Virus record (IMG/VR): IMGVR_UViG_3300047548_000688
Location: 1-27,502 of that record
DNA from: a virus
DNA length: 27,502 nt
Reading direction: 5' to 3' (one strand)
The notes beneath the pieces are model-generated. The model made no database searches and was not told the DNA's origin. It saw nothing but the letters and a program-made list of their open reading frames with translations. The position numbers were made by a program, and so were the translations under genes. Shown here one piece after another: positions 13,668-25,866 of the stretch (the stretch's first letter is position 1; every line of letters begins with the position of its first letter).

Positions 13668-13970
13668 TTAGAATGGTGCGTGAATACTATCTGCGCAGTC
13701 CTTGCACACGCTACATTCGTAGCCGTGGTCATACCGGCAATCTTTATGCTCCATACAAGACTCACAAGTGTCATTATATGTAGGCTCATCTTTGAAGTCC
13801 CACGGATTGGGTGAATACTCGTCGGTTTCATCATTGATTTTAACCTTCTCATACTTGAGCGTATCGTAGTTGTACTTGTAGTCCCAATCATCCCAATCAT
13901 CGTTGTCGTTGAATGGGCGTGATAGTGGACGCGCCAGAAGTTGCGCCCTTGTAAATTTTAGTGCCGCCAT
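13668..13970 (-). CDS. Acidic protein with Cys-rich C-terminus, about 100 residues
   Basis: The coding frame is clear in its C-terminal 80 residues: Asp/Tyr/Trp-rich (NDNDDWDDWDYKYNYD) and then CESCMEHKDC and CSVCKDC, which look like a small zinc-binding ribbon. The start is uncertain: the first good ATG (MAALKFTRAQ) lies 74 bases inside the amidotransferase gene, and no ATG is found nearer its stop in this frame. The Cys pattern recalls the N-terminal domain of the nearby amidoligase, suggesting a common function or origin. Confidence 0.5.
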   Translation of the reverse strand: MAALKFTRAQLLARPLSRPFNDNDDWDDWDYKYNYDTLKYEKVKINDETDEYSPNPWDFKDEPTYNDTCESCMEHKDCRYDHGYECSVCKDCADSIHAPF

Positions 13971-14523
13971 AATCATAGTAGCGTGATGCCTTGTATGTGG
14001 TATTGCTGAACCAACAGCCCAAGTCCCACACACCCATATCCTCGTTGACAATGAATGCCTCGTTGTCGGTGTTAAGGAATAGTAGTTTGGACGAGCCGAT
14101 ATATTCCTGCACGAGGTCATAGATAGCATCGTTATGTATCCAATCGGCAGGTAGTTTTTGTAGTACCTCACGATTGAACATATACGTGTCGCTGAATTCG
14201 GTATGTTTCGGAGCCGCCGATATAATACCGTTGTGTACAAACCCCCACTTGTCATTAACAATAAATGGGTGGCAGTTCGTTAGGTTAACCTTGCCGTGTG
14301 TTGAGATACGGAAGTGGATAACGATCTGGCTTGTTCTGTGTTGCTGACGCACATTGTGGTAGTGGTCATAGAAGGAGTCGAAGTTAGTCATCTCCTTGTG
14401 GGTAGTTAACTTGCCGTCAACTAAATAGAGCATACCTGCTCCGTCAGTATTGTTTTCCCAACAGGTCTTAAGAACCTTCTTTTTAAGGGTTACGTTATTA
14501 GGGTTTAAAATTGCTATACACAT
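13897..14523 (-). CDS. Class II glutamine amidotransferase
   Basis: A 208-residue Ntn-hydrolase domain. Cys2 (MCIAI), exposed after Met removal, is the nucleophile that frees ammonia from glutamine. NTDGAGM (25-31), HFRISTHG (70-77), NCHPF (83-87) and HNGI (97-100) are the family's glutamine-binding and oxyanion-hole segments, as in GlmS/PurF N-terminal domains. There is no synthase domain, so it must pass ammonia or glutamate chemistry to a partner; the amidoligase gene lies 14 bases upstream in the same operon. Such pairs are known in phages and were proposed to modify peptides, proteins or cell wall. The target is unknown. Confidence 0.85.
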   Translation of the reverse strand: MCIAILNPNNVTLKKKVLKTCWENNTDGAGMLYLVDGKLTTHKEMTNFDSFYDHYHNVRQQHRTSQIVIHFRISTHGKVNLTNCHPFIVNDKWGFVHNGIISAAPKHTEFSDTYMFNREVLQKLPADWIHNDAIYDLVQEYIGSSKLLFLNTDNEAFIVNEDMGVWDLGCWFSNTTYKASRYYDYGGTKIYKGATSGASTITPIQRQR

Positions 14524-14537
14524 AGTCTTATAAATTA

Positions 14538-15755
14538 TTAGTTAATATCTGTTGATTCGCCATTAAGGTCAGCACCATTGTACATATTGCTGTACTCAAC
14601 AAAGAGGGCAACCTTGTTAAGCATCTTGTCCTCACCTACCGCCTTGCTGATATGTTGGTGAAGTGTAGACTTGCGGTCACATAGCATACGTAATACATCA
14701 CGCTCCGACTTACCGAAGTTGCGTACCATAATACGTATCAGTTCAACTCGCCAGTATAAATTCTCTACCGACCTAACAGCAGGGAAGATGCGGAACTCTA
14801 TCGTAGTGTCACGCACATACACCGCTGAGTACTTGTCACGATTGAGATACTCGTGCTTCATCTTAGCCTTGCAGTAGTTGACCGTGAGTCGCTTCTGATA
14901 CAGAGAGTACAGCATAGGGAGGAAGCCGCTGATACCTTCGAACAATTGCTCGGTGGTATATAACTTACTACCTAAATGTATATGACCGCCGCATCGTGAG
15001 CCGTGCTTGGCGTTGATGTGGTCACGCAACAAATTGGAAGCCGCGATATCATCCTCGTGTAGTTTATCAAAGAGATTGTACACAGGTGAGATGAGCTCGA
15101 AGCCTGAATAGGTGTCAAGTGAACTATCGTTCTCCTTTGTCCAACCATCGGGCAGGTCATCGTGATAGCAAGACTTGCGCACATCCTTATCCTCCTTCTC
15201 TACCTCAAACCCCATTGTCCAGGGGGTAGTCTTATCAACTCGCCACGAACGGCTACCGCTATGGTATGATGCAAGATAGTCATCGTCATCCTCATCCTCA
15301 TCGGGTGCATCGTCAACGTGACGATAGTCGCCTACCGATTCGTAGTAGTAGACATCGTTGTAGTTAGCGACATCGCTGTTACGATAGTATGTGCCGTCAC
15401 ATTCTATATAATCATTGTCATCACGGAGAAAGTAACCCTCTTGATAACGATTGACATAACCCTCAAGGCATTCATCTTCATACGCATGCACCTCCTCCCA
15501 TTCACACCACACAATATTCAAAGCACGTTGCTCATCTTCGTGGAAACTGTCACCGCAATGTGTGTAGTGAATATCGTCATCCTCGTGACAGACATTGCCG
15601 TGTGTTAGCGTTTGAACACCTGCATCTCCGTGTTCATACCATTCGCCTTGGTATTGACCGATGGTGAATTTTGAGCAGTTACTGCGTAATGCTTGACTGC
15701 CGTTGTACAGATCTACTATCTCTTCAACCTGTACGTTTGAATTGTTTTCTGACAT
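14538..15755 (-). CDS. Amidoligase_2-type COOH-NH2 ligase with acidic Cys-rich N-domain
   Basis: A 405-residue protein in two parts. Residues 40-150 are acidic and aromatic with repeated short units (VCHEDDDIHYTHCGDSFHED, YIECDGTYYRNSDVANY) like the degenerate treble-clef repeats seen in front of phage amidoligases. Residues 178-400 carry the ligase motifs MGFEVEKE (181-188), GFELISP (218-224), CGGHIHLG (255-262) and TIEFRIFPAVRS (318-329), the acidic and His residues that bind ATP-magnesium in this glutamine synthetase-like superfamily. It would form an amide bond between a carboxyl and an amine. Next to a class II amidotransferase. Substrate unknown; virion protein, host protein or cell-wall peptide are options. 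Confidence 0.8.
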   Translation of the reverse strand: MSENNSNVQVEEIVDLYNGSQALRSNCSKFTIGQYQGEWYEHGDAGVQTLTHGNVCHEDDDIHYTHCGDSFHEDEQRALNIVWCEWEEVHAYEDECLEGYVNRYQEGYFLRDDNDYIECDGTYYRNSDVANYNDVYYYESVGDYRHVDDAPDEDEDDDDYLASYHSGSRSWRVDKTTPWTMGFEVEKEDKDVRKSCYHDDLPDGWTKENDSSLDTYSGFELISPVYNLFDKLHEDDIAASNLLRDHINAKHGSRCGGHIHLGSKLYTTEQLFEGISGFLPMLYSLYQKRLTVNYCKAKMKHEYLNRDKYSAVYVRDTTIEFRIFPAVRSVENLYWRVELIRIMVRNFGKSERDVLRMLCDRKSTLHQHISKAVGEDKMLNKVALFVEYSNMYNGADLNGESTDIN

Positions 15756-17634: not shown

Positions 17635-17678
17635 AAAGCACGTAAAATTTAATTGGTTTGAGCGTAGCGTATTACACG

Positions 17679-17697
17679 ACCTCGGCTTTCACGAGGT
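17679..17697. repeat. 6-bp hairpin ACCTCG/CGAGGT
   Basis: ACCTCG (17679-17684) pairs with CGAGGT (17692-17697) around a 7-base loop, in the non-coding stretch 17635-17810 that otherwise holds two parS-like sites and a GTGGTCACCAC palindrome. Confidence 0.4.
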
Positions 17698-17713
17698 AGT
17701 ACCTTGCACCAAT

Positions 17714-17729
17714 GTTTCACGTGGAACAT
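17714..17729. promoter_or_regulatory. parS-like ParB site 1
   Basis: TGTTTCACGTGGAACA; read on the other strand it is TGTTCCACGTGAAACA, the canonical chromosomal parS bound by ParB/Spo0J. The inverted symmetry extends to 20 bases (AATGTTTCACGTGGAACATT). Confidence 0.75.
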
Positions 17730-22068: not shown

Positions 22069-22602
22069 TTACACTCTGTTTCTCTTTAACTTTTCTCTGA
22101 TTTTGCTCTTCTTCTGCTCCGCCTTGTTTACGTGCTTGACGAACTGCTCTGAAGGAACGTGGTAGCCAATCTGTTTGAGATCTATGACCACCTGGTTTAT
22201 CTTGGTTCTGAAATCCGCATTGTACATCAGGTAGTTCTCTACCGTGTTCAAGTGGTGAATGACCGAACTGTGGTGCATCTTTAGCGTTTCCGAAACCAAT
22301 CGGTGCGTGCAGCCTAATGTGGTTTTAAGAATCCACATATATGACCTCTTCGCGTCAATGATGTTGCTATTTCTCTTCCTTGACATAATCTCCTCCGGGC
22401 TTGTATTGAACACAGCCGCACAAGATGACAGGGCTATGTTTATAAATTGGTCGGGGTTGTCTGAAATGTCAAGTGTGTTGTTAATGCCCTCAAGCATCCG
22501 CTTTGCGTCCGACTGTAGTGTGTCAGTTTCGCCATTTACAATTGTTTCCAAAAATTGAATAATTAAATGTGGTTTAACACATGATGTAAGGTCGGATATC
22601 AT
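22069..22602 (-). CDS. DnaA domain IV-like DNA-binding protein
   Basis: A 177-residue protein whose residues 60-125 match the DNA-binding domain of DnaA: AAVFNTSPEEIMSRKRNSN (62-80), IIDAKRSYMWIL (81-92), then CTHRLVSETLKMHHSSVIHHLNTVENYL (98-125), where MHHSSVIHH corresponds to the DnaA signature G-R-D-H-S-T-V-x-H. There is no AAA+ ATPase domain. It could bind DnaA-box sequences on phage or host DNA to start or divert replication. Overlaps the primase-helicase start region by 4 bases. A basic C-terminal tail (AEQKKSKIREKLKRNRV) adds DNA affinity. Confidence 0.75.
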   Translation of the reverse strand: MISDLTSCVKPHLIIQFLETIVNGETDTLQSDAKRMLEGINNTLDISDNPDQFINIALSSCAAVFNTSPEEIMSRKRNSNIIDAKRSYMWILKTTLGCTHRLVSETLKMHHSSVIHHLNTVENYLMYNADFRTKINQVVIDLKQIGYHVPSEQFVKHVNKAEQKKSKIREKLKRNRV

Positions 22603-24311
22603 AACTCAAATTCCTGTTGGTTAAATTCGGTGCTAAGATAGGAAGTTTTGTTAAGTTTTCCAACTATATAATATCTGCCGCTTGGAATATCGTATTGCAT
22701 CTCACGGCTACCCTGACGTCCCCAATGTTTGAACTTCACCTTCTGCACGAATATCTCAGGCATTGAACCACCATCCTCGAAGAAGTGACGATACACCGAT
22801 ATACCATTGTCGCACTTGTTGTAGAAGTGGGCAGAGCCAGCCATATCATAAAGCGTAGCCACATTGTACTGCTGTGTCTTTGGGTCCCTTGACATCTTGG
22901 TCGGGTGGGCAACTACGAAGGCGTGTACGCTATACTTTCGGCAGAAACTGATTAACTTATCTAACTCCTTGGAAATGTGTTGGGTTTCCGAGGTCTGATA
23001 ACTATGCTCCAACTTGTTCCACGCGTCAATGATGATTGCATTGATACCATACTTCTTTACAAGGCTCTTTGCGTGTTCAATTATGCTATCAAGGCTATTG
23101 TCCTCTTCAGGCGCTATGTAGAAGAAGTTATCGCGGCAGTAGTTCATTGCTGTAACAATCTCGCGGTCATTCATATCATTAAACGCAGTACCTACCAACT
23201 TACTTGCAATCTTTGAGAAGTGCAGTTGAAGGGGATAATTCTCCGGTGAGAAGATTCCAAATCTCCATCCGTGTCTAACCGATAGGTCCACCATTATCTG
23301 ATCTAGGAATTCCGACTTGCCGTGGTTAGGTATACCTGTAACTCCTGTAACATATCCAGGTACAAAGGTTAGCAGTTCATTGAACGCGTCAATTGATATA
23401 TCACATCCAGGCTTTAACCCTTCGCGTCTTAATCTCCAAATGTCATCCGCTATACCGTCTATTGTAACGATTCCCTCTAATGGATATTCTTCGGCGGCTT
23501 CTAATGTTTCGGGTAGCATCAATGGGTCCGTGATTAGAAGTTCATTAGCATCCTTCTTACCAAAGAACGAAATCTTTTTACATCTATCCTTCCCAAATCT
23601 TCTCGCAAGTTCCTCTTGAAGAATGCGACCCGGTTCGTCATCGTCTGTTGCAAGATAGATTACCTTAACGTCCTCAAATCGGTCAATGCAGTTGTCAACG
23701 TATTGTAGACGATTGTTTTTTGACGCTCCGTTAGGAACTGAAACAACAGATGTTATTCCAACCTGATGATAAGCCATCGCATCTAATTCACCTTCCGTTA
23801 CGACAACAAAATCTTGACTAATGCTATCTAAATTGTAGAATACAAGTTCAGCATCCTTTACAAGTCGGAAGTTCTTCTCGGCATCACGGTACTTGATGTT
23901 AATTAACTCTCCATCGCGGTAGTAGTTGAACATAATGCAGTTCCTTTCCTGCGCAACCTGTGGAAAGAACATTCTTCCGCTTTCTACATTGAAGTCAATC
24001 AACGTAGATGAATTGATCCCGCGTTCCTTAAACCAATTAACTATCTTATCAGGTAGTGCGGTTGGATTGGATGTGGGTACAGGACGCGTGTATCTTTGAA
24101 CCTCTTGATCCTCCGACTTACGTACAAAGCGTGCGTTACAGTGGTTACAATGTCCAACACCTTCTATAGTGTTGAAACTCATACACTTAACATTCTTCTT
24201 CTTCCTATCGCCAGAGCATACAGGGCAAGCCATACTATTCTCGCCGCGTCTATCGGCATTGATGATGTATGTCTTTCTATTTTCGAGGTTATAAATCTTT
24301 TCCGATGCCAT
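22599..24311 (-). CDS. Primase-helicase (T7 gp4/Twinkle type)
   Basis: A 570-residue protein in three parts. A zinc-binding domain has Cys29-x2-Cys32 (ACPVC) and Cys55-x2-Cys58 (HCNHC). The TOPRIM primase core has VVVTEGELDAMA (169-180, Glu173) and ATDDDEPGR (221-229). The DnaB-like RecA helicase domain has Walker A GIPNHGKS (326-333), FGIFSPEN (351-358), Walker B AIIIDAWN (425-432) and the VVAHPTK segment (466-472) with sensor His. This order and length fit bifunctional phage primase-helicases that unwind the fork and prime lagging-strand synthesis. It lies between the DnaA-like and initiator-like genes. Confidence 0.92.
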   Translation of the reverse strand: MASEKIYNLENRKTYIINADRRGENSMACPVCSGDRKKKNVKCMSFNTIEGVGHCNHCNARFVRKSEDQEVQRYTRPVPTSNPTALPDKIVNWFKERGINSSTLIDFNVESGRMFFPQVAQERNCIMFNYYRDGELINIKYRDAEKNFRLVKDAELVFYNLDSISQDFVVVTEGELDAMAYHQVGITSVVSVPNGASKNNRLQYVDNCIDRFEDVKVIYLATDDDEPGRILQEELARRFGKDRCKKISFFGKKDANELLITDPLMLPETLEAAEEYPLEGIVTIDGIADDIWRLRREGLKPGCDISIDAFNELLTFVPGYVTGVTGIPNHGKSEFLDQIMVDLSVRHGWRFGIFSPENYPLQLHFSKIASKLVGTAFNDMNDREIVTAMNYCRDNFFYIAPEEDNSLDSIIEHAKSLVKKYGINAIIIDAWNKLEHSYQTSETQHISKELDKLISFCRKYSVHAFVVAHPTKMSRDPKTQQYNVATLYDMAGSAHFYNKCDNGISVYRHFFEDGGSMPEIFVQKVKFKHWGRQGSREMQYDIPSGRYYIVGKLNKTSYLSTEFNQQEFEL

Positions 24312-24508: not shown

Positions 24509-25300
24509 TTATCCCTTTTTAAATCCTATTGGTCTTGTTCTGTAGTGCCACGTGCCATCAACTAATTCCTTGAGAACATCCTCGTTGTAGTGGCGGTATT
24601 TGTTAAATCCTTCATACTGCTCTGGATTATCAACTTCAAACTTAAGTTGTGAAACATTAATCTTGTCCTCCGGCTTAAACCAAAGTTGCATCTTCATCTT
24701 CCAGTTCATTACCTGCTTGTTGTTCTTATCCTTCCAATCATTCGAATCGTAGTAGTTAAATGCCTGCTCACCCTTTGAAGGAGAATACCCCTTTTCAAGA
24801 AAGTACTGCTTAACCTCACCAAGCGTTGGAGGAATAAATTCATTCGCCGCCTTCTTTCTTTTTATATTTTCTTTCTTTAATGTTTCTTTGTTATATTCTG
24901 TATTTGTAATACTGTGTATTTGTATAGGGGTAGTTTGAGCGATATCGGCATTATCCGATATCGGGTTTTGCCGAAGTCGGCTTTCGTCTACCTTGGGTTC
25001 TTCACAAACTTCGTGATTCCACCCTTGAAATACTTTAGTTTCAGGATTTACAACTCTAATGCTAACTATGTAACCTCTATTCTGAAGCAATTTAAAAACA
25101 CGATCAACAGTTCCTTTTGATTCGTTTGTTTTTTCGTGTAGAGTTGATTTATACAAAATCCAATCTTCAGGAAGGCTTAATAGATAAACTAGCAGTCCCT
25201 TCTCCTCAAAAGACATTGTGCAGTCTTGTAAAATCTTATTACTTATTTTAGTGAAGCTGTTATCACTTTTCGCCCTAATAATTCTACCTGTATTGTTCAT
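24509..25300 (-). CDS. Replication initiator-like winged-helix protein
   Basis: A 263-residue protein. The N-terminal domain (about 15-80) reads FTKISNKILQDCTMSFEEKG, LLVYLLSLPEDW, then KGTVDRVFKLLQNRGYIVS, the HTH_36/replisome-organiser type fold found in phage and plasmid initiators. After a polar linker, the C-terminal part FIPPTLGEVKQYFLEKGYSP, QAFNYYDSNDWKDKNNKQ, MNWKMKMQLWF matches the C-terminal motif of DnaD/replication-protein families. It heads the leftward replication operon (initiator, small protein, primase-helicase, DnaA-like). It is preceded by an unusual structured leader RNA. Confidence 0.75.
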   Translation of the reverse strand: MNNTGRIIRAKSDNSFTKISNKILQDCTMSFEEKGLLVYLLSLPEDWILYKSTLHEKTNESKGTVDRVFKLLQNRGYIVSIRVVNPETKVFQGWNHEVCEEPKVDESRLRQNPISDNADIAQTTPIQIHSITNTEYNKETLKKENIKRKKAANEFIPPTLGEVKQYFLEKGYSPSKGEQAFNYYDSNDWKDKNNKQVMNWKMKMQLWFKPEDKINVSQLKFEVDNPEQYEGFNKYRHYNEDVLKELVDGTWHYRTRPIGFKKG

Positions 25301-25395
25301 AGTTTAAAAATAAACCCCGTGACTTAGGAGTGGTAGCGGTCACGTCCTAAATCACAGGGTTATTATAATGCTTTCCATTGGCCGCTACAACCAAT
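25301..25395 (-). ncRNA. Structured leader RNA with kissing hairpins
   Basis: On the minus strand, hairpin P1 AUUGG/CCAAU (25395-25391 with 25381-25377) has the loop UUGUAGCGG. Hairpin P2 is a 17-bp stem (25361-25345 with 25329-25313, two G-U pairs, no mismatches) whose loop contains CCGCUAC (25339-25333). GUAGCGG of loop 1 (25388-25382) is the exact complement of CCGCUAC, giving a 7-bp kissing or pseudoknot helix. P2 runs into UAUUUUU and the start codon follows 5 bases later. No leftward gene lies upstream, so this is a leader and not an end-of-operon terminator. Likely an attenuator, riboswitch-like or translational control element. Confidence 0.65.
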
Positions 25396-25410
25396 CGTCT
25401 TTCGACACGG

Positions 25411-25440
25411 CAAATATACATTCAGAAATTTCAAATGCAA
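25411..25440 (-). promoter_or_regulatory. Promoter of the replication operon
   Basis: Minus-strand TTG (25438-25440), 19-base spacer, TATATTTG (25411-25418). Transcription would start near 25404, so the RNA would open just before hairpin P1. Confidence 0.65.
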
Positions 25441-25476: not shown

Positions 25477-25508
25477 TTTGGTAAATGTAGAACAACCATG
25501 TATATTTG
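25477..25508 (+). promoter_or_regulatory. Promoter of the SSB-like gene
   Basis: TTTG (25477-25480), 20-base spacer, TATATTTG (25501-25508): the best match to the Bacteroidota consensus in the window. It gives a leader of about 10 bases before the ATG at 25525 and runs divergently from the replication operon. Confidence 0.7.
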
Positions 25509-25524
25509 TGGAAAATTATATATC

Positions 25525-25866
25525 ATGTTTAATATTACAGGAAAAGTGGTAGCAGTCGGAGATAAGCAATCTCGCGGCAATTTTGATTTCATTGAGTTCG
25601 TATTAGAGAACTCTAGAGAAGTTGGTGGAAACACCTACACAGACACATACGCCTTCACAATTGGAGGTAAGTCACTTGATAGCGTCATGACGCCAGTTGT
25701 GGGCGATGTATCTGATGTGAAGTTTAACATTCGTTCAAAGGAGTACAATGGTAAGTACTATACAAGTTTGAACGTCTACTCAGTAGAGGTGAAGGAGGCG
25801 GCTCCGAAGGGAACAGGGGGGAAGAAGGCAGCCCCGGTACAATCAGATGATGATTTGCCGTTTTAA
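25525..25866 (+). CDS. SSB-like DUF3127 protein
   Basis: A 113-residue protein starting MFNITGKVVAVGDKQ; an earlier in-frame ATG overlaps the promoter. The body is one OB-like fold (FDFIEFVLEN, TYAFTIGGKS, GDVSDVKFNIRSKEYNGKYY, SLNVYSVEV), and the tail ends SDDDLPF, the acidic peptide by which SSB proteins recruit partners. These are the marks of DUF3127 proteins of Bacteroidota phages, considered single-strand binding proteins. It would cover single-stranded DNA at forks and during RecT recombination. Followed by a strong terminator. Confidence 0.8.
   Translation: MFNITGKVVAVGDKQSRGNFDFIEFVLENSREVGGNTYTDTYAFTIGGKSLDSVMTPVVGDVSDVKFNIRSKEYNGKYYTSLNVYSVEVKEAAPKGTGGKKAAPVQSDDDLPF

Follow-up and report, generated by a model that had tools for sequence, protein, structure and literature searches.

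A kissing-hairpin leader RNA, probably an attenuator, ahead of the replication genes of many Bacteroidota phages

The plasmid ColE1 controls primer formation through two opposed transcripts, RNAI and RNAII, which kiss over about 7 nt per loop and whose loops diversify into incompatibility types, and such plasmid incompatibility loops act as specificity determinants; the RNAI-RNAII complex is itself bound by the protein Rop by virtue of its shape. The antisense RNA of pT181 releases a terminator to terminate, the c4 RNAs are related to the CI RNA of satellite phage P4, the HK022 put antiterminator RNA is a sequence-conserved pair of stem-loops, and cobalamin riboswitches contain a kissing contact between a loop of the upstream domain and that of the regulatory hairpin. 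Attenuation of the pT181 type, as set out in PMC3753616, has a terminator immediately ahead of the replication initiator gene and works through kissing hairpin loops, with specificity set by the loop and the upper stem. In P4 immunity, according to PMC4825925, an RNA from the leader transcript of the replication operon pairs with that same leader and terminates transcription of the replication genes, short complementary sequences controlling this premature termination.

The locus described here lies in the IMG/VR virus record IMGVR_UViG_3300047548_000688, of which the whole 27,502-nt stretch analysed is termed the window, and consists of a minus-strand leader with two hairpins, HP1 and HP2, whose loops are complementary. 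It shares with P4 the placement at the head of a phage replication operon, the use of short complementary sequences and an acting RNA that would come from the same leader transcript. It differs in having two hairpin loops of one leader where P4 relies on a processed CI RNA with a pair of target sites, in that HP2 is itself terminator-like and any trans action is a proposal of ours, in belonging to a different phylum, and in matching no Rfam family; no gathering-level match to P4 CI or c4-type RNAs was obtained at the window leader or its relatives. Unlike in pT181-type systems, both complementary loops reside in one RNA, and by eye no TAnnTTTG box for an antisense promoter is seen on the plus strand at 25221-25300, a check that weak variants could escape. 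Unlike in ColE1, attenuation of an initiator gene is proposed. Unlike cobalamin riboswitches, the leader has no ligand core and no conserved sequence, and neither a conserved core nor an Rfam match to these or other riboswitches was found at it. A put-type RNA was set aside, as the stem and loop sequences of the leader are unrelated between families.

Anatomy and gene setting of the leader

The promoter is of the Bacteroidota type, with a -33 element TTG (25438-25440) separated by 19 nt from a -7 box TATATTTG (25411-25418; consensus TAnnTTTG), and runs directly into HP1, as the preliminary description had said. Since the TAnnTTTG box sits at -12 to -5 in Flavobacterium (PMC9723704), the transcription start is predicted at about 25406. 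The predicted 5' end bears a mini hairpin, GUC-GAAA-GAC (25397-25406), which is confined to the window family and found in the nine closest leaders of its alignment, A3 (with GGC in L018). HP1 (25377-25395) comprises ATTGG and CCAAT around TTGTAGCGG, its stem covaries, and it carries the kissing sequence GUAGCGG at 25382-25388; folded alone, it can adopt an alternative of 8 bp and a triloop with two U.G pairs, which partly covers the kissing bases. A 15-nt A/U-rich linker (25362-25376) leads to HP2 (25313-25361), which is defined by its fold and by the helix in A3 and presents CCGCUAC at 25333-25339, the exact complement of the HP1 sequence. Copies of GTAGCGG or CCGCTAC elsewhere in the window occur in roughly the number expected by chance.

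HP2 had been called a perfect 17-bp hairpin with a U-rich tail abutting the initiator ATG. Its 17 consecutive pairs, the U-tract UUUAUUUUU (25306-25314) and the ATG at 25300, 12 nt downstream, all stand, and only "perfect" has to be relaxed, two of the pairs being U.G; beyond these pairs lie a bulged C and three more pairs closing the loop ACCGCUAC. Folded alone, HP2 has a minimum free energy of -29.2 kcal/mol, with 0 of 200 shuffles as stable, and the entire leader has a folding z of -4.93. A stable hairpin followed by the U-tract has the make-up of an intrinsic terminator, and this putative terminator lies, as in pT181-type attenuation, between the promoter and the initiator ATG. In several phages of the Flavobacterium and Cellulophaga type the gap between HP2 and the start codon holds a third small hairpin with a changing stem and a similar loop, for example CGGU-AAUCUUAAA-ACCG (L142:10470, L181:1778; by eye also in L126, L132 and L176).

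The gene behind the leader (24509-25300, minus strand) encodes a 263-aa replication-initiator-like protein of the PHROG replication initiation/DnaD-like helicase loader group, and by homology the same operon codes for a primase-helicase (22599-24311, minus) and a protein with a DnaA C-terminal DNA-binding domain (22069-22602, minus). No upstream gene requires termination at this point, the neighbouring gene for a DUF3127/SSB-like protein (25498-25866, plus; also by homology) being divergent and having its own TAnnTTTG promoter. As the 12-nt gap between HP2 and the ATG has no room for a promoter, expression of the initiator must read through HP2, and the leader is hence most simply taken as a transcription attenuator. 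Translation-dependent attenuation through a short upstream ORF in the window leader (MESIIITL) was considered and rejected, the ORF not being conserved. Elsewhere in the window, a match to the twister-sister ribozyme (17649-17714, minus) scores 37.9 against an Rfam gathering threshold of 34, with GCAAGG, GUGAAAGCC and CGCUCA aligning to the model, and genes for a GATase_4 glutamine amidotransferase-like and an Amidoligase_2 amidoligase-like protein adjoin one another (13897-14523 and 14538-15755, minus).

The lack of a known family of this form is borne out in Rfam 15: no family matches the window leader, sub-threshold matches being unrelated, and none matches the leader in 18 related loci. 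A DUF805b RNA (RF02914, E=1.1e-11), a small cis-regulatory motif, lies elsewhere in L126, at 1919-1953, just upstream of a gene of Flavobacterium phage morran9-1. No description of this leader was found in the literature covered, which is without many subscription papers and so does not prove absence.

Recurrence, covariation and exchange of the loop pair

All eight initiator relatives in viral contigs are preceded by the promoter, HP1 and HP2 in that order. Protein homology, used independently of the RNA, picked up a related replication gene on 25 contigs, of which 24 could be scored, L175 being cut off upstream; promoter, both hairpins and complementary loops are present in 23 of these (21 by scan or inspection; L197 and L198, where the promoter box deviates from TAnnTTTG, by inspection), and L199 is the sole exception. 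Among annotated phages, Flavobacterium and Cellulophaga phage isolates and the Lillamy/Mumin phages included, the leader is present in morran9-1, snork6-1, hemulen6-1, tooticki6-1, filifjonk9-1, stinky9-1, lillamy9-2, three elemo phages, FCOV-F4, phi19:1 and Nekkels_1. Complementary hairpin loops were recovered in 39 of 46 upstream regions, many of them close relatives, against 5 in reversed and 1 in complemented controls; two of the 39 (L128, L131) are not the element, and L182-L185 and L130 were missed and yet carry the leader.

The 29 elements listed display 22 different loop pairs, all complementary. The spacing counts leave out two rows (L015, L018) whose match fell on the wrong strand; in 24 of the 27 correctly placed rows the kissing partners lie 42-55 nt apart. 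The box reads TAnnTTTG in 24 of the 27, partly by construction, as many were first found with that box. Many HP1 loops have GU near the 5' end, and the matching HP2 loop then ends in AC; a GU start is lacking in L176, L181, L182, L183, L185 and L131. The U-tract is weak in L177, FCOV element A, L183 and phi19:1.

A search for a 7-base loop pair with an HP2 stem of at least 7 gave, in eight phage sources (283 kb), seven matches (six distinct elements, one counted twice) against none in either the reversed or the complemented sequence. In 800 kb of four Flavobacteriaceae chromosomes there was no excess, a 7-base pair giving one match against two and one in controls, and a 6-base pair two against three and one. 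A looser finder, run on 523 kb from 17 phage contigs (31 pieces, some of which overlap), returned 16 matches against 4 and 4; the convincing ones among them sit at the replication module, never more than one to a contig. A pattern scan of viral contigs picked out 23, 18 of them with the element; in the variants L046 and L054 it is less clean, with the HP2 match beside an inner hairpin, and L048, L053 and L061 look like chance. The same pattern gave 57 matches in genome contigs, none convincing. The covariance model R1, which represents one leader family only and is weak evidence to that extent, gave two matches in 299 Flavobacteriaceae genomes, neither convincing: both are without the kissing element and resemble ordinary gene-end terminators. 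Of 36 SSB relatives, only the 10 closest have the element, which was not found in the 26 distant ones, nor in Parabacteroides PDS1 and PJN03, Flavobacterium 6H or Riemerella RAP44. From these searches the leader is judged to belong to phages, not having been seen in the host DNA examined.

Certain phages bear a second copy. In L132, L133, L134 and L136 a further kissing leader precedes a gene annotated from PF07463 as an endonuclease, with the pair GUCGUCG/CGACGAC directly upstream of that gene in L132 (231-308, plus), and FCOV-F4 carries two elements, one ahead of the gene at 40428. The device is therefore not tied to replication alone.

The preliminary description had named covariation in related phages as a check, and the outcome is positive in two alignments. 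In A3 (13 sequences), which has only three loop types within the window's alignable family, the kissing helix is 100% paired with double changes in two of its seven pairs, and over the entire structure pairing reaches 92%, whereas with one side slid it is 51% at most. The five sequences of A4 come from the cultured phages morran, snork, FCOV-F4 and elemoC and from one contig; pairing in the kissing helix is likewise 100%, and six of the seven pairs show double changes. Loop-loop complementarity with compensatory change extends through the alignable families and the list of loop pairs. A kissing-hairpin leader heads the replication operon, as initially described, and many phages have one in the corresponding position, built from unrelated sequences. 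Judged from these alignments, the loop-loop pairing is under selection. The RNA is read as the sense strand, since the G.U pairs of HP2 fall there.

The leader also diverges between otherwise near-identical phages. In four such pairs HP1 and the HP2 loop change together, sometimes along with the 5' part of the initiator gene. Between L001 and L002 the leader alone differs (85/100 identical positions against 3246/3350 in the flanks, p=1e-6; next most divergent window 0.89 against 0.85), the changes falling mostly in HP1, the linker and the HP2 loop, with one in the HP2 stem. Between L190 and L192 it is again the leader alone (69/100 against 1336/1400, p=1e-15), and in both pairs the 100-nt window of greatest divergence overlaps it. 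L017 and L018 share 97-100% identity over kilobases to either side of a leader that differs (99/110) and of a replaced first part of the initiator. In morran9-1 and lillamy9-2 (L126/L140) the leader and the 5' part of the initiator are replaced, and a single 100-nt stretch immediately upstream has diverged as well; that stretch apart, the near flanks in these two pairs are 91-100% identical, mostly 97-100%. The cassette replaced in the initiator's first part extends over about 105-900 nt past the leader start. Furthermore, two SSB lineages that are only about 64% identical over the upstream 560 nt each contain both the CGG and the CAG loop type.

By analogy with plasmid incompatibility loops, the exchange is suggestive of a specificity determinant, and the swapping of alleles points to RNA-RNA specificity rather than a ligand. 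Recombination without selection is a possible source of it, and the joint swaps could be ordinary recombination in which the leader hitchhikes with the initiator, against which the two leader-only swaps argue, though there are only two.

Proposed mechanism and its alternatives

We consider it rather more probable than any other account that the leader attenuates transcription of the replication operon, with the loop pair as its specificity type. The RNA would start near 25406 and HP1 would fold first; the emerging HP2 loop would then pair with that of HP1, and HP2 with its U-tract, which separates the only promoter from the initiator ATG, would act as an intrinsic terminator. The replication genes would be made only when polymerase passes HP2, termination leaving an RNA of about 100 nt, and the HP1-HP2 kiss would set the termination rate. 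The loop pair is read as a specificity type because a terminated RNA from one genome copy could pair with a same-type leader on another and shut it down, with copy control or superinfection immunity as the outcome. In the version we favour, the kiss in cis hinders closure of the terminator, and a kiss in trans on HP1 would free HP2 to terminate. Trans action is made plausible by P4, where RNA from the same leader terminates transcription of the replication genes (PMC4825925), and is weakened by the expectation that cis pairing should outcompete trans pairing. Since the U-tract is weak in the four members named above, termination is perhaps not the output everywhere, and we leave room for a translational output in these. 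No weight was placed on a geometric consideration by which the linker would not be long enough to bridge the kissed helix.

That same kinetic advantage of cis pairing speaks for a device acting in cis only, in which the kiss would stabilize or speed the folding of HP2, as terminator or as a block near the start codon, to hold initiator expression constantly low, with loop diversity arising by compensatory drift and recombination. The tight spacing of the kissing partners fits it, and covariation by itself needs no trans partner; drift, however, does not predict that the leader should be the most divergent window between near-identical phages, nor that the CGG and CAG alleles should recur in both SSB lineages, and we give this account a minority share of our belief, about half that of the attenuator with specificity types. 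Somewhat less likely still is a switch in which a protein, of phage or host origin, recognizes the kissing complex by its shape or by conserved GU..AC ends and tunes termination: an architecture kept while the sequence is private, and the GU and AC ends of many though not all loops, would suit it, but the protein is hypothetical and six elements are without the GU start.

That the inverted repeats are a DNA-level part of the origin or initiator binding sites is very improbable, for despite their adjoining the initiator gene and being exchanged with it in two pairs, their sequences are not conserved, the sense-strand G.U pairs, promoter phasing, U-tracts and loop-loop complementarity are properties of RNA, and second copies precede other genes. 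A riboswitch or other ligand sensor, raised initially and suggested by the terminator-like hairpin and by the kissing loops of cobalamin riboswitches, is the least credible of all: on reading the leaders no unpaired core is shared between families, Rfam gives no match, and loops that are peculiar to each phage and differ between families make a small-molecule ligand unlikely.

Returning to the attenuator with specificity types, one might speculate, and we do so only tentatively, that each leader RNA is its own antisense, the HP1 of one copy fitting the HP2 of another, so that the terminated leaders made by a resident phage would turn off the replication operon in any phage of the same loop type. 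Copy control and superinfection immunity specific to the type would then need no repressor protein, and the loop types would be under diversifying selection and traded like incompatibility groups.

The leader has the look of a regulatory RNA class not described before, heading the replication genes in many Bacteroidota phages, where it probably serves each virus as its own on/off switch for DNA replication. Being carried by cultured isolates, it is directly testable, and it offers a direct test of how loop-loop contact alters intrinsic termination. If the loop pair is indeed a specificity type, these leaders would form a natural library of orthogonal kissing attenuators, and the phages that carry them would possess an RNA-based system of immunity and copy control.
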